In this document: positions 3,446-10,671 of the stretch, piece by piece
How the letters are laid out: each line of letters begins with the position of its first letter
How positions within the stretch are numbered: the first letter of the stretch is position 1
Origin: Actinomycetes bacterium
GTDB taxonomy: Bacteria > Actinomycetota > Acidimicrobiia > Acidimicrobiales > RAAP-2
Assembly: GCA_025352305.1 (NCBI GenBank)
Contig: JANXTQ010000061.1
Location: 1-12,384, forward strand
Direction: 5' to 3'
DNA length: 12,384 nt
Notes under the pieces: generated by a model
The model's database searches: none
Told to the model about the DNA's origin: nothing
Seen by the model: the letters and a program-made list of their open reading frames with translations, nothing else
Made by a program: the position numbers and the translations under genes

Positions 3446-3458
3446 CGAACATTGTTCG
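3446..3458. promoter_or_regulatory. Perfect 13-bp palindrome, candidate operator
   Basis: CGAACATTGTTCG has 6-bp perfect arms around one central T. It begins directly after the thiolase-like gene's stop codon and covers about -36 to -24 relative to the predicted leaderless start of the membrane-protein gene, where a bound regulator could block or assist RNA polymerase. It resembles the actinobacterial LexA box (CGAAC-N4-GTTCG), but the spacer between the CGAAC and GTTCG halves is 3 nt, not 4, so LexA binding is doubtful. No regulator is named. Confidence 0.35.
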
Positions 3459-3469
3459 TGTGCAAGGTC

Positions 3470-3475
3470 TACCAT
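3470..3475 (+). promoter_or_regulatory. Candidate -10 element (TACCAT) of the membrane-protein gene, leaderless spacing
   Basis: TACCAT matches TANNNT and ends 6 nt before the ATG at 3482. There is an AAGG at 3464-3467, but it is 14 nt from the ATG, too far for a good ribosome binding site, which makes a leaderless message the simpler reading. No clear -35 box; the palindrome at 3446-3458 occupies that region. Confidence 0.35.
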
Positions 3476-3481
3476 CGCGCC

Positions 3482-4990
3482 ATGGTTCGTACTCAGCTGC
3501 GAGTGCTGTTAGCGGGATTCTTCATCGCGGCCGCAGTGGCGATGCTCGCGAGTATGGCAATGAACATGCAACGCGCAAGTGCAAGTTCGAACGCCCTCGA
3601 CGGCACGTGGACGTGCTGTTCTGCAGGCGGTGCCAGTCCTCAACTCTGGGTAATTGGCGGTAACGGCGGGGTTCTCGAGGACTTGTCCGGCCAACCTTTT
3701 GGTACGTTCACAATTTCGTTAACCGGTTCAACGGTAACGATGCATCAGGTGTACAACTCAACGTTTGGTGGTTACACCGCCGATTTCCACGGAACCCTCA
3801 GTGCCAATGGTCGAAGAATGGTCGGTTCGTGGTCCGACAGCAATGGCCAAAACGGATCGTTGACCGCCACGCTCAATGGACCGGCGCATCCGCTGAACTT
3901 ATCTACCGGCAACGTCGAACCACTCGCGGCTTCGATTGGAACTCCGGGTCAAATTTTTCACTCCATGAGTCACAACATTCAAAACGCCGCGATCGCCGTC
4001 GTTTTGATGTTGGGTTTGACGTTTCCTTCAACAATTTTCAATCAAACCTTCAGCGCGCACTACGACGAGATTATGGCCATCATTGAGCGCCGTCGTGCTC
4101 GCCTGGCACGCCTCATCGGACTAAAGGCCCGCCCCGAACCCGAAGGCACTGTTGAGCAATCGGACTCTGGCGCCGTCGTCGCGAGCAGTGATGAACCCGA
4201 CGCCGCGTCAACGCCATGGTTCATTGGTGTGCTCATGATCGGAGCCGTGCTGGGTGCGATGTTGAGTCCACACTTTGGCGTCAATACGGCCACCGCAGTT
4301 GGTTTTATCTCCACCATTGCCGCCTTCGCGTTAGGGGCACTGATCTCTTGGTACGTCACGAGAACTTTTCGCCGCCTTCGCGGATACCGCCTCGTGAGCT
4401 ATCGAAAGGCGCTACCTCTCGGTCTCGCCATTGCGGCGCTCTGCGTTCTCATATCGAGAGTGTCGAGTTTTGAACCGGGCTACCTCTACGGAATTGTCGT
4501 TGGGGTGGCGTTCGCTGAGACCATGAATGAACGACATAACGCACATCTAACAGCGATTGCCTCAGTGTCAACCATGAGCGTCGCATTGATTTCGTGGATT
4601 CTGTGGATCCCGGTCAATCACCTCGCGCTCGAGCACTCCGGATTTATTCCGCTCGCGGTTGTCGACAACGTGCTCGGATCGCTCTTCATCGGTGGACTCG
4701 TCGGAACCACCATCGGACTGCTTCCTCTCGTACTACTGCCGGGAAAAACGTTGATGACGTGGCGCAAAGATGCCTGGGCGGTGCTGTTCTTCATCGCGCT
4801 GTTCTTACTTATTGAAGTGGAACTTCGACCCGAGTCGGGACCAACCTCTTCCTCCAAGGCCCCGTGGGTAACAGCAATATTTCTCTTCATTTTCTTTGGT
4901 GGCGGCACGCTCGCCATGCGCCGGTACTTTTCTACGAAGAGTCCGACCAGCGCTGTCGAGTCTGACGTATCGACCAGCGACGTCGTTTAA
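3482..4990 (+). CDS. Polytopic membrane protein with GLLP motif and secreted beta-rich N-terminal domain
   Basis: The 502-residue product resembles the actinobacterial group named for an FGLLP motif; here it reads TTIGLLPLVLLPGKTLMTW (409-427). A signal-anchor helix (about 7-27) is followed by a small domain rich in Gly, Ser and Thr (38-135) with LDGTWTCCSAGG, GTFTISLTGSTVTMH and MVGSWSDSNGQNGSL, which looks like a beta-sheet sequence outside the membrane. Then come a hydrophobic segment (169-186), a basic cytoplasmic stretch IERRRARLARLIG (201-213), an acidic linker (220-242) and about seven more hydrophobic segments (247-265, 270-292, 309-325, 333-347, 356-377, 390-420, 431-447, 462-478). 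The start chosen is ATG at 3482, which gives a clean signal segment; TTG 3452 and GTG 3458 are in frame but have no support. No enzymatic motif is visible and I cannot assign a function. Its TAA interlocks with that of tsaC. Confidence 0.85.
   Translation: MVRTQLRVLLAGFFIAAAVAMLASMAMNMQRASASSNALDGTWTCCSAGGASPQLWVIGGNGGVLEDLSGQPFGTFTISLTGSTVTMHQVYNSTFGGYTADFHGTLSANGRRMVGSWSDSNGQNGSLTATLNGPAHPLNLSTGNVEPLAASIGTPGQIFHSMSHNIQNAAIAVVLMLGLTFPSTIFNQTFSAHYDEIMAIIERRRARLARLIGLKARPEPEGTVEQSDSGAVVASSDEPDAASTPWFIGVLMIGAVLGAMLSPHFGVNTATAVGFISTIAAFALGALISWYVTRTFRRLRGYRLVSYRKALPLGLAIAALCVLISRVSSFEPGYLYGIVVGVAFAETMNERHNAHLTAIASVSTMSVALISWILWIPVNHLALEHSGFIPLAVVDNVLGSLFIGGLVGTTIGLLPLVLLPGKTLMTWRKDAWAVLFFIALFLLIEVELRPESGPTSSSKAPWVTAIFLFIFFGGGTLAMRRYFSTKSPTSAVESDVSTSDVV
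4987..4990. other. Interlocked stop codons of two convergent genes (TTAA)
   Basis: The plus-strand membrane-protein gene ends with TAA at 4988-4990 and minus-strand tsaC ends with TAA at 4989-4987, so the two genes overlap tail to tail by 4 bp. No intergenic space remains for conventional terminators, and each transcript must run into the other gene or stop inside it. Confidence 0.95.
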
Positions 4991-5604: not shown

Positions 5605-6434
5605 GGCTGATGTGCGCAGACAAGAAACCGCTCGCGACTGTTGAGATCCATCTCGGTACACACTGAACCAAAGCCGGCGTCGTGCGCGGCGCGGCGCGCT
5701 CGTTCTGCCTGGAGCTCACCGTGCTCAATAATCACCGTGCCCTGTGGCGATAACCAGCCCGGTGATTCAGCGATGATGTGAGCGACGTCGCTGAATCCGT
5801 CTCCGAGCTCTACGTCCGCGCTCACGAGAGCGCCGAGTGGCTCGTAGGAAAGAACCGGATCGAGCAGTTCGAAGTCACGCTCGCTGATATACGGAGGATT
5901 AGCAACGATCAGGTCAATTCGCCCTCGCAGGGACGAATCCACGTCATCGAACCAGGATGACTGAACAAAACTGACGGCGCTCACGTGGTTCTTGAGAGCG
6001 TTTCGACGCGCCACCACCAAAGCGTCGCTGGACAGATCCACCGCGAAGAGCGCCCCCTTGACGCCGCGCGCGTCCAGTTCACTCAGTAGCGCGAGACCAA
6101 TTGCGCCAGATCCACAGCCGAGATCGACAATCACCGGTGCGCGAACGCCACGGCGAGCTAGTTGAAGCAAAGCGATACTCACCAGTTCTTCGGTCTCGGG
6201 TCGAGGAATAAGCACCCGAGGATCAACGTCTAGATCCAGTGAACGAAAGGGCCAATGTCCGAGAATGTACTGGAGCGGCTCGCCATTTAAGCGACGAGTG
6301 GCCGCCTGCATCACGGCGTCGCTGCCGGCAATGTCGCCGCCGGGAGCAAATTCGTCAACGATCCAGCGAGCCTCGTGCGCCGCCACGCCCAACTCACGCA
6401 ACTGCGCAGTGAGCGCTGCGTTAGCGGCTGTCAC
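5601..6434 (-). CDS. prmC: Release factor glutamine methyltransferase
   Basis: PrmC (HemK) methylates the Gln of the GGQ motif in peptide release factors using S-adenosylmethionine. The 277-residue product has the small helical N-terminal domain (1-65, with GEPLQYILG at 51-59), the IPRPETEEL motif (76-84), the SAM-binding motif IVDLGCGSGAIG (102-113), AVDLSSDAL (131-139) and the catalytic ANPPYI (178-183) that binds the substrate Gln. I chose GTG at 6434, which overlaps the end of prfA by 14 bp and gives a family-like length; the frame is open further upstream (ATG at 6479), but that would add 15 residues translated from inside prfA. The coupling with prfA fits the function, because RF1 is its substrate. 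It ends in TGA overlapping the tsaC ATG. No abnormality apart from a less conserved N-terminal domain, which is usual for the family. Confidence 0.94.
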   Translation of the reverse strand: MTAANAALTAQLRELGVAAHEARWIVDEFAPGGDIAGSDAVMQAATRRLNGEPLQYILGHWPFRSLDLDVDPRVLIPRPETEELVSIALLQLARRGVRAPVIVDLGCGSGAIGLALLSELDARGVKGALFAVDLSSDALVVARRNALKNHVSAVSFVQSSWFDDVDSSLRGRIDLIVANPPYISERDFELLDPVLSYEPLGALVSADVELGDGFSDVAHIIAESPGWLSPQGTVIIEHGELQAERARRAAHDAGFGSVCTEMDLNSRERFLVCAHQP

Positions 6435-7500
6435 TGTCGGCGAGTTGGCGCGCTCGCTTATCGGCCAGCAGAGCATCAACGTAGGGATCTAGGTCGCCGG
6501 CCAACGTCGCTTCGAGGGCGTAGGTCGTGAGATTGACGCGATGATCGGTGACGCGATTCTCTTTGAAGTTGTACGTACGGATTTTCTCGCTGCGATCCCC
6601 CGCTCCGACTTGGGAACGCTTCAGTCCACCCTGCTCGGCGGCCTGAGCATCTTGCGCCGCCTTCAACAGTCGACTGCGAAGGACAATGAGGGCCTTGGCG
6701 CGGTTTTGGATCTGGCTCTTTTCGTCCTGCATGGCCACAACAATGCCCGTGGGCAGGTGAGTGATTCGAACGGCGGAGTCCGTGGTATTGACGCTCTGTC
6801 CTCCGGGTCCCGAACTTCGATAGACGTCAATCTTCAGATCGTTGACGTCAATCTCTACGTCAACCTCTTCAGCTTCGGGCAGCACCGACACCGTGGCCGT
6901 CGACGTGTGCACGCGGCCCTTGGTCTCAGTGACCGGCACGCGCTGGACGCGGTGCACGCCGCCTTCTTGTTCTAAACGAGTCCACGCATCAGCGCCCTTG
7001 ATCAAAAAGATAATTTCGTCCAGTCCGCCCTGCTCGGAGTCACGACGTTCAACGATCTGCAGTTTCCAGCCGCGAGCTGCGGCGTAACGCTGGTACATCT
7101 CAGCTAAGTCCGCGGCGAATAGATTCGCCTCTTCGCCCCCCGACGCTCCGTGAATCTCGACGATCACGTTTCTGCCGTCGTTGGGATCTCGTGGCAGCAG
7201 CAATGTCTCGAGTTCGGATTCGAGGCCTTCAATGCGACTTTCGGTGTCGCTAATCTCCTGGCGCCACATTTCGCGGTCGTCACCGGTGGCTTCGTTGAAC
7301 ATCTCTCGGGCACTAGCGGCGTCAGTGCGCAGCGAACTCAGTTCTTTCCATACCGATACCAACTCACTCAGTTCCTTATGGCGCTGAGAAAGCTCGCGAA
7401 GTCGCGTGAGGTCCGACGCCACGTCGGGTTGAGCCAGTTCGGCTTCAATGGAAATCAGTTCGTCGCTGAGCTTGCTCAGCGTGTCGTCGAGGGTGCTCAC
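6421..7500 (-). CDS. prfA: Peptide chain release factor 1
   Basis: RF1 recognises UAA and UAG in the ribosomal A site and triggers peptide release. The 359-residue protein is full length: a helical N-terminal region (1-100), the GASGGEEANLFAADL segment (118-132), the stop-codon recognition tripeptide P-V-T (189-191, in RVPVTETKGR; RF1 type, not the RF2 SPF type), and the catalytic RSSGPGGQSVNTTDSAV (228-244) with GGQ at 233-235, the PrmC target. C-terminal QVGAGDRSEKIRTYN and RVTDHR segments are present. The start is GTG at 7500, 24 nt beyond the rpmE stop, with no obvious Shine-Dalgarno. prmC overlaps its 3' end by 14 bp. Stop is TAA. RF1 does not read UGA, so it would not itself terminate at the TGA inside rho; that is a job for RF2, whose gene is not in the window. 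Confidence 0.97.
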   Translation of the reverse strand: MSTLDDTLSKLSDELISIEAELAQPDVASDLTRLRELSQRHKELSELVSVWKELSSLRTDAASAREMFNEATGDDREMWRQEISDTESRIEGLESELETLLLPRDPNDGRNVIVEIHGASGGEEANLFAADLAEMYQRYAAARGWKLQIVERRDSEQGGLDEIIFLIKGADAWTRLEQEGGVHRVQRVPVTETKGRVHTSTATVSVLPEAEEVDVEIDVNDLKIDVYRSSGPGGQSVNTTDSAVRITHLPTGIVVAMQDEKSQIQNRAKALIVLRSRLLKAAQDAQAAEQGGLKRSQVGAGDRSEKIRTYNFKENRVTDHRVNLTTYALEATLAGDLDPYVDALLADKRARQLADSDSR

Positions 7501-7524: not shown

Positions 7525-7749
7525 CTAAGCCCGGGGCGTACGCGACTTGGTCTTTTGGGCGTAGCGACGCTGGAAGCGCTCCACGCGTCCTCCGGTGTCG
7601 ACCAACTTCTGCTTACCCGTGAAAAACGGGTGACATTCGTTGCACAGTTCGACCGTCATGGTCGACTTCGTCGACTGGGTGCTGAAGGTGTTGCCACATG
7701 AGCAGGTCACGGTGGCGTCGCCGTAGTTGGGGTGTATGTCGGGCTTCAT
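7525..7749 (-). CDS. rpmE: 50S ribosomal protein L31 (zinc-binding form)
   Basis: L31 is a small protein of the large ribosomal subunit that helps bridge to the 30S head. The 74-residue product begins [20 protein letters not shown] and carries two Cys pairs, CSC (16-18) and CNEC (37-40, in [14 protein letters not shown]), the four ligands of the zinc-binding (C+) paralogue; the C- form used in zinc starvation lacks them. The C-terminus is basic ([15 protein letters not shown]), consistent with rRNA contact. The ATG at 7749 is preceded by a strong ribosome binding site. It lies between rho (41 bp upstream) and prfA (24 bp downstream), the standard actinobacterial arrangement. Stop is TAG. Confidence 0.97.
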
Positions 7750-7790: not shown

Positions 7791-9482
7791 TTAGCTAGTT
7801 GGACTCGGCCCCTTGCCGATTTCGGCAAGGAACTCGTCGTTTGAGCGAGTTTGGCGAAGTTTGTCAATCAACAGTTCGAGGCCGGCGGCGTCACGTCCTT
7901 CGGCCGACAGACCGTTTAACACGCGGCGTAACTTCCACACCTGAGTCAGTTGGTCACGGTCAAAGAGCAACTCTTCGTGACGAGTTGAGCTGCCGTTGAC
8001 GTCAATGGCGGGGTACAAACGACGCTCCGCGAGGCGACGGTCCAGCTTCAACTCCATATTGCCGGTGCCCTTGAACTCTTCAAAGATGACTTCGTCCATC
8101 TTGGAGCCGGTCTCTACGAGAGCGGTCGCCAGGATCGTGAGGGATCCACCTTCTTCAATGTTTCGCGCCGCACCGAAGAATCGCTTCGGCGGATAGAGCG
8201 CACCGGAGTCCACTCCACCGGACATGATGCGACCGGTCGCGGGCTGGGCGAGGTTGTAGGCGCGAGCGAGACGAGTAATTCCGTCCAAAATGATGACGAC
8301 ATCTCGTCCCAACTCCACGAGCCGCTTCGCGCGCTCGATGGTCAGTTCGGCCAAGTGCGTGTGCTCGTCGGCGGGACGGTCAAAGGTGGACGCGACGACT
8401 TCGCCACGAACGCTTCAACGCATGTCGGTGACCTCTTCGGGTCGCTCATCAACCAAGAGCACAATGAGGTGTACGTCAGGGTTGTTGACTTCAATCGACT
8501 GGGCGATCTGCTTCATGACGGTGGTTTTTCCGGCCTTCGGCGGTGACACGATCAGTCCGCGCTGACCCTTACCAATGGGGCTAATGAGGTCAACAATGCG
8601 CGGGGTGAGGTCCCCTTTTCCTTCGTTGGTCTCGAGGCGCAACTTTTCGTCCGGAAACAGCGGGGTCAGATCTTCAAATCGGGGACGCTGGCGCGCGAGC
8701 TCGGGGTCCATGGAGTGAACGGTGTCCACGCGCAGCAGGGCGGCGTACTTCTCGTTGCTCGCAGCCGGGCGGTACGCGCCTTCAATGGCGTCACCTTTTC
8801 GCAGGTGGTAACGGCGAACCTGCGAGATCGAGACGTACACGTCATTCGCGCTCGGCTGATAACCATTGGTGCGCAAGAAGCCGTAGCCGTCGTCACGCAG
8901 ATCCAACAGACCCTTGACCTCGACGAGCTCGCCGTTATACGGCTGGTCGGCGCCGCTTTGGGGCTCGCCGCGATCGAATCGGTCCCGACCGCGGTTACGG
9001 CGATTGCGGCGATTGTTTTGGGCGTTGCGGTCGTTGGAAGCGCCCGCGCCGTTGGCACCGTTGGCGTTGCCCGGACCACTGTTGTATTCACGTGGGGGGC
9101 GCTCGGTACGTGGTGACGGGTTTCTCGACGGTGCGCCGGAGGGCGAACCATCAACTTCAGTGTTCTCCGAACTAGCAGCAGGACTCTGCGACGTCGTGCT
9201 GGGCAATGCGGCGCTCGGCTCGGCGGCGGTGACCTCTTTGACGAAGTCGTCAAAATCCGTTTCGGGAGTGGCGACGGTGCGCCGTGAGCGCACCGGTCCG
9301 GGGCGAGCGGGTCGCTCAGCAACGGGGGCCGCGGCCTCGGGAGCGGAGTCCATAATCGCCGAGATCAGCGTGGCTTTGCTCGCTCGAGCGGAAGTTTTCA
9401 CGCCGATGGCGGAGGCAATTTGAACCAACTCCTCGCGTTCTTTAGTTTCGAGGACGGTCTTGTTCGTGGGCTCTTGAGCCAT
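7791..9482 (-). CDS. rho: Transcription termination factor Rho, interrupted by an in-frame TGA
   Basis: Rho is the hexameric RNA-dependent ATPase that terminates transcription. Reading through one TGA gives 563 codons. In order: a Rho_N helical region (about 12-45); a low-complexity insertion (46-180) ending in an Asn/Arg-rich stretch [18 protein letters not shown], typical of actinobacterial Rho; the cold-shock-like RNA-binding domain (191-240, [13 protein letters not shown]); and the ATPase core with P-loop [10 protein letters not shown] (312-321), [11 protein letters not shown] (344-354), Walker [15 protein letters not shown] (397-410), Q-loop [18 protein letters not shown] and R-loop [11 protein letters not shown]. 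The ATG at 9482 has a good ribosome binding site. At codon 356 (8417-8415) a TGA stands where homologues have Arg; the frame is unchanged and fully Rho-like on both sides. If translation ends there, a 355-residue product with Walker A but no Walker B or C-terminal motor loops results. The only early start after the TGA is a TTG at 8354 without a Shine-Dalgarno. Walker B has Gly401 where E. coli has Ser266. True stop is TAA. Confidence 0.93.
8415..8417 (-). other. Premature in-frame TGA in rho
   Basis: The minus strand reads ATG CGT TGA AGC GTT CGT, that is D-M-R-stop-S-V-R-G-E. Other Rho proteins read M-Q/R-R-S/L-V-K-G-E here, so the stop replaces a conserved Arg that by motif alignment is Arg221 in E. 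coli numbering (two residues after Met219). A CGA codon changed by one C-to-T transition explains it. The base after the stop is A, not the C that most favours UGA readthrough. Confidence 0.95.
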
Positions 9483-9633: not shown

Positions 9634-10671
9634 TTATTGCAAATGTCGTAACAGGTCGTCCATGGTGGCTTCGATGACGACGGGGGTGACCGACTGACTC
9701 ACCGCCGTGTCGGGATCCTTCAGACCATTTCCGGTTAGTACGCACACGACCCGCGAGCCCGCTGGGACGCCAAACTTTATGAGCCCCGCCACACTCGCCG
9801 CGGACGCCGGTTCACAAAAAACCGACTCGTTTCGTGCCAGAAAGGAGTAAGCAGCGAGTAACTCGTCATCGGTGACGGCTCGAATGGCCCCGTGCGACTC
9901 GTCCACAGCTTCGAGCGCCGGTACCCAGCTCGCGGGATTCCCAATGCGAATCGCCGTGGCGATCGTTTCGGGTTCATCAACGCGGTGACCGAGCACAATG
10001 GGCGCCGCACCCGCCGCCTGAAAACCCCACATCTTGGGCAGGATGCTCGACACGCCGGCGAAGTGGTACTGGGTAAAGCCACGCCAGTAGGCCGAAATAT
10101 TTCCCGCGTTGCCCACGGGAATCGACAAGATATCCGGAGCGTCACCGAGAGCGTCCACCACTTCAAAGGCGCCCGTCTTTTGACCCTCGATCCGGTCGGG
10201 GTTAATGGAGTTCACGATCGTGATGGGCAGATGTTGAGTCAGTTCGCGCGCCATTGTGAGGGCCCGATCAAAGTTCCCGCGAATTTGAATCACTTCCGCG
10301 CCGTACACAATTGCCTGAGCCAATTTTCCGAGCGCTACTTTGCCCTGCGGAACGAGTACGACGCAGCTCATTCCGGCGCGAGCGGCGAAGGCCGCAGCGG
10401 CGGCGGATGTATTGCCGGTGGAGCCACAGACGACCGTGGTGGCTCCGGCCGATTTGGCCTTCGTAATCGCCATGGTCATTCCACGATCCTTGAAGGAACC
10501 AGTGGGATTGAGTCCTTCGAGTTTCAGCCAAACGTCGGCTTTGACGAGTTCACTCAGTCGAGGAGCGTGGATGAGCGGTGTATTTCCTTCCAGCAACGTA
10601 ACGACGTCAGTGACCCCTCGAAGATCGAGCCAATCCGCGTATTCGTGCAACAAACCGCGCCACGGCGTCAT
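9634..10671 (-). CDS. thrC: Threonine synthase
   Basis: ThrC converts O-phosphohomoserine to threonine, the last step of threonine synthesis, using PLP. The 345-residue product is the short, bacterial/actinobacterial form (about 350 residues) of the fold-type II family. Signatures: LEGNTPLI (27-34), [17 protein letters not shown] with the PLP lysine K61 (49-65), [13 protein letters not shown] (82-94) that stabilises the cofactor ring, [14 protein letters not shown] (154-167), the phosphate-binding loop PVGNAGN (186-192) and [10 protein letters not shown] (C-terminal). The ATG at 10671 overlaps the hom stop as ATGA, so translation is coupled to hom. In mycobacteria thrB follows thrC; here the next gene is rho, so homoserine kinase must be encoded elsewhere. 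Stop is TAA, followed by a GC-rich hairpin. It looks fully functional. Confidence 0.96.

Follow-up and report, generated by a model that had tools for sequence, protein, structure and literature searches.

The rho gene in a fragmented draft genome of an uncultured acidimicrobial actinobacterium is interrupted by an in-frame TGA at codon 356. This stop is probably a single-base consensus error and rho would then be intact in the living cells; the source reads would lack the TGA. The error reading was favoured because the assembly is in many pieces (1.79 Mb in 300 contigs), the relatives carry an intact gene with arginine at the site, and the frame is constrained as in a gene in use. The TGA is isolated in the sampled part of the genome, is missing from the relatives found and is accompanied by no sign of decay or recoding. 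The original prediction had proposed a consensus error, a recent nonsense mutation or low-level readthrough of UGA. That set was the right one, and the checks run here point to its dull members.

The interrupted rho frame and its surroundings

The window (the whole stretch of DNA that was analysed, 12,384 bases) is one contig, C86, among the 300 of a draft genome that totals 1,789,504 bases, with a completeness of 97.94% and a contamination of 3.56%. The nearest relatives of its Rho in the species-genome collection are labelled Actinomycetes, Acidimicrobiia, Acidimicrobiales, Acidimicrobiaceae and are mostly MAGs. GC content was 56.6% in 41 sampled contigs of the draft genome (G000) and 72.3% in stretches of G033, a genome given as belonging to the same genus; this spread is wide for a single genus.

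The rho frame is encoded on the minus strand from an ATG at 9482 to a TAA at 7791 and has 563 residues. The TGA at codon 356 (8415..8417, minus strand; the plus strand reads tca) is its single internal stop, and translation with the TGA as X gave the single 563-residue Rho frame that had been expected from reading through. In HMMER alignments, residues 298-399 matched M. tuberculosis Rho (7oqh) free of gaps, and residue 356 was aligned with Arg221 of the E. coli Rho chain 1pv4, with no indel through the site. The stop was thus rightly described as a substitution rather than an indel, and its correspondence to E. coli Arg221 was also rightly given. On the opposite strand, a 185-residue frame crosses the rho stop. 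The observation goes beyond chance, as 32 same-genus genomes have an unbroken frame there.

The 5′ part of the gene (8415..9482, minus strand), from ATG to TGA, encodes 355 residues with the RNA-binding domain, Walker A (residues 314-320) and the DERPEEV motif (residues 345-351), in which the catalytic Glu and the Arg valve are residues 346 and 347. The 3′ part of the same frame (7791..8414, minus strand) consists of 207 undamaged codons and the TAA. It encodes Walker B (residues 395-401), two regions that we take to be the Q-loop (residues 413-422) and the R-loop (residues 457-465), and the Arg finger at residue 501, mapped from M. tuberculosis R541. These motif positions agree with the earlier placement of the stop between Walker A and Walker B. 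Pfam assigned Rho_RNA_bind and ATP-synt_ab profile positions 3-59 to the 355-residue piece, and ATP-synt_ab profile positions 74-211 to the 207-residue piece. The frame read with X contains the RNA-binding domain, both Walker motifs, the catalytic Glu and the Arg finger, but the chain as written ends before Walker B. Judged by the motifs that it lacks (Walker B and the Arg finger), the 355-residue product should be inactive and should not hydrolyse ATP.

The neighbouring genes, all on the minus strand, are intact. Downstream of rho are rpmE (ribosomal protein L31, 74 residues; 7525..7749) and prfA (release factor 1; 6421..7500), the latter scoring below the cut-off of the prfB model. Upstream is a PALP-fold enzyme (9634..10671), presumably threonine synthase-like (thrC-like). 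The thrC-like gene adjoins rho in the window and also on contig C3 of G012, a relative compared here. Elsewhere in the window, a 512-codon frame with hydrophobic stretches (3452-4990, plus strand) had no Pfam match at E 0.001.

A PF00006 search of this ~98%-complete genome gave rho as its sole match and no F1 ATP synthase alpha or beta subunit. In four relatives (G005, G019, G023 and G026), the contig that carries rho also has a putative ATP-synthase-like frame, about 9-19 kb downstream of it. The window contig stops about 8 kb past rho, so the missing subunits are likely to reflect an assembly gap.

Codon 356 in related genomes

The Rho frame was matched in 33 of 36 same-genus genomes. Codon 356 was covered in 32 of these and was a stop in none, so that the comparison with sister genomes proposed earlier returned an intact gene, and a stop inherited in the genus is out. 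The codon was read in 31 of the 32 (G015 was left out) and was CGN (Arg) in all 31, CGA in seven. In the 33rd genome, G012, the contig ends inside the codon preceding 356. Rho had no match in the remaining three genomes (G006, G009 and G021), which likewise have no close copy of the thrC-like neighbour (best identity 36-37%). Since both genes are missing, a gap in the assembly is the likelier cause in these three, with a joint loss as the less likely one.

In the species-genome collection, codon 356 was CGN in all of the best 80 of at least 589 matches (CGC 43, CGG 22, CGT 10, CGA 5). The closest protein among the matches listed, P0002, is intact and 88% identical; it and the next ten homologues (P0003-P0012) are unbroken at the site and have Arg there. 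Among the best 120 of 597 matches listed, the 355-residue product formed a one-sequence cluster from the window contig only, and the other proteins listed all had at least 527 residues. The stop is therefore missing from close relatives and other records alike; neither the protein nor the species-genome collection listed a record from the same species, whether with a broken or a whole gene.

Constraint on both sides of the stop

Past the stop, 206 of 207 residues (codons 357-563) are identical to those of P0002, in agreement with the earlier claim that this part of the gene is undamaged. Before the stop, the conserved part (residues 182-355) is the same as P0002 at 171 of 174 residues and the variable N-terminal part at 146 of 181. 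In a comparison with 40 other aligned sequences, no residue was unique to the rho frame in the 174 + 207 conserved residues around the stop. When the post-stop codons were compared with 27 same-genus genes, 79-105 of 207 showed silent differences and 16-28 showed residue differences (197 codons for L127). These patterns suggest that rho was fully constrained until very recently, or still is. The stop is not old.

Survey for other interrupted genes

Other interruptions were sought in 60 contig stretches and the window, i.e. in 61 of the 300 contigs (418,034 bases), with frames of at least 80 residues from 1,199,101 bases of one same-genus genome as the reference. The contigs were a non-random set, 18 having been chosen for tRNA genes and C271 for prfB, and the matches span 194,808 bases. 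From 236 matches, 58 were dropped (identity below 40% or length below 60) and 16 were set aside for a longer frame in another reading. The 162 that were kept comprise 50,468 residues and 69 listed stops. Shadow frames of the GC-rich reference (72% vs 57%) had given many false stops before this filtering.

The TGA in rho was the only stop in the 162 matches with at least 60% identity in both 25-residue flanks (0.84 and 0.76). Each of the other 68 stops had at least one 25-residue flank below 0.60, and these were put down, largely on visual inspection, to shadow frames or to sequence ahead of a start. When all 236 matches (107 stops) were considered, two more stops had both flanks at or above 0.60, L142:5660 and L241:3806. 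They were taken for shadows because longer frames on the opposite strand, of 1,353 and 262 residues, cross them. No frameshift pairs were present in the 162 matches from 61 of 300 contigs; in three cases, two matches to the same reference were in different frames, and a tRNA gene was involved in each.

The assembly thus does not look broadly error-ridden, no other flanked in-frame stop being present in 50,468 residues, and this counts against an error. With rho as the sole case in 162 matches from 61 of 300 contigs, there is no excess of internal stops. By the rule of three, the lack of a further case in about 50,000 codons sets an upper bound (95%) of ~6 additional stops per 100,000 codons, which leaves room for tens genome-wide. 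The survey weighs against a badly corrupted assembly; a single error is still compatible with it.

The rho core in metagenome assemblies

Of the 33 same-genus genomes in which rho was matched, at least five have a contig that ends within the gene (loci L242-L247): at residue ~354 in G012, 362 in G036, 400 in G014, 216 in G017 and 302-308 in G023. Two of the five ends are within about seven codons of the TGA position. In the protein P0004 (561 aa, encoded on a contig of 2,285 bases), residues 181-470 share 97% identity with the window, whereas residues 471-561 share 75% with a Pseudomonas Rho and 48% with the window; by this mosaic P0004 is probably a chimeric assembly joined within the conserved core. 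On account of the five contig ends and the join in P0004, the conserved rho core was regarded as a site at which metagenome assemblies break or cross, which is circumstantial evidence as far as the window is concerned. Base errors account for many internal stops in bacterial assemblies and are tied to low coverage, read quality and the assembler, according to the accessible part of one study (PMC11017572).

A young nonsense allele as the alternative

A consensus error and a young mutation are not separable with certainty, as no record of the same species was found. The TGA may be a real and very young nonsense allele, carried by a strain or a part of the population that lacks active Rho and has had no time to decay. 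This is the main rival reading, less likely than an error. A real mutation would leave the same trace, a single-base transition in an Arg codon. CGA is a common Arg codon (431 of 1,753 counted) and is found at the site in seven of the 31 same-genus genomes read, so one transition is enough. The surroundings of the gene are intact and no other conserved gene is interrupted in the sample. No intact copy from the same species was found among the matches listed; with the nearest protein at 88% identity, the intact state is known from other species only. Some Gram-positive bacteria need Rho and others do not, and in Streptomyces lividans, Bacillus subtilis and Staphylococcus aureus it can be lost in rich media, as stated in the accessible part of PMC5379054. 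A real loss of rho is therefore not absurd.

Against a real allele, however, the TGA is present in no other genome searched or protein listed, rho is kept across the genus, and the rho frame has not decayed at all. In addition, Rho is described as essential in two actinobacteria, M. tuberculosis and Micrococcus luteus, in the accessible parts of PMC5379054 and PMC8828861. A brief search of open-licence literature met no report of a natural rho nonsense allele in actinobacteria.

If the stop is an error, it is another caution against taking one stop in a draft assembly as evidence of gene loss. If it is real, this would be a naturally Rho-deficient actinobacterium and a test of what replaces Rho, in a group whose members differ in whether they need it.

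Readthrough, restart and recoding

A second intact rho, which would have made the window copy a pseudogene in the original prediction, was not found: the contigs of the genome (1.79 Mb, 300 contigs) had no match besides the window copy. Nor was the suppressor tRNA suggested there detected, since none of the 31 tRNA genes in a genome scan with ARAGORN typing had the anticodon UCA, although such a gene could be located within an assembly gap. The RF2 gene, prfB, is present and unbroken, and loss of RF2 is thereby ruled out. Selenocysteine, already considered implausible, was rejected as well on the strength of tRNA-Sec, folding and Rfam results. Nine weak matches to tRNA-Sec (RF01852) were all on ordinary tRNA genes and none was over the cut-off, the RNA past the TGA folded no better than its shuffles (z -0.27) and the window has no Rfam match.

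A real stop that has become established in the population could be tolerated if a near-cognate tRNA leakily read through the UGA, put an ordinary amino acid at the conserved Arg site and so kept up a trickle of full-length Rho. The full constraint on the 207 downstream codons would fit such readthrough, but it is explained equally well by youth or by error. The absence of a UCA tRNA among the 31 genes, the presence of prfB, the lack of a tRNA-Sec over the cut-off, of a downstream fold better than its shuffles and of an Rfam match, and the conserved Arg at a site where no relative found has a stop all make readthrough very improbable. Positive support for readthrough or tolerance was not found.

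It is still harder to credit that the 355-residue protein and a restarted C-terminal piece form a working ring. In-frame start codons do occur downstream, the first ATG, GTG or TTG past the stop being a TTG 21 codons on (8352..8354, minus strand). However, a restart there costs 20 residues, no Shine-Dalgarno-like stretch was seen by eye before the TTG at 8354, and a stop at this site is missing from all 32 same-genus genomes in which it is covered.

TGA terminates 28 of 81 homology-supported genes in the 41 sampled contigs, as well as prmC and hom in the window; given this usage, the presence of prfB and the absence of a UCA tRNA among those found, the genetic code is standard. Reassignment of UGA to Arg or another amino acid, for which this one codon is the sole support, is refuted by this stop usage, and the sampled conserved genes contain no other in-frame TGA.

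Comparison with known systems

Throughout its length, the window frame resembles the Rho proteins of M. tuberculosis (7oqh) and E. coli (1pv4): it has the N-terminal part (as in 7oqh), the RNA-binding domain, Walker A and B, the Q- and R-loops and the Arg finger. It differs from them in having TGA in place of a conserved Arg, position 221 in E. coli. Genomes with a reassigned UGA are recognised by UGA unused as a stop, a suppressor tRNA and loss of RF2, none of which was found here. Damage or relaxed constraint past the stop, as in a true pseudogene, was likewise not seen (no genome-specific residue in 207), which leaves room for a very young loss. Young pseudogenes and nonsense alleles are a general concept in bacteria. 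The window is like them in that one transition gives the stop and the remainder is intact, but it differs in that no second isolate or record shows its allele in nature. The likeness to spurious pseudogenes that arise from assembly errors, as described in the accessible part of Cooley and Wright 2024 (PMC11017572), is qualified by the lack of an excess of internal stops in the sampled part of this genome. In other respects the window resembles them: a lone internal stop interrupts an otherwise perfect conserved gene in a fragmented draft, and the relatives do not have it.
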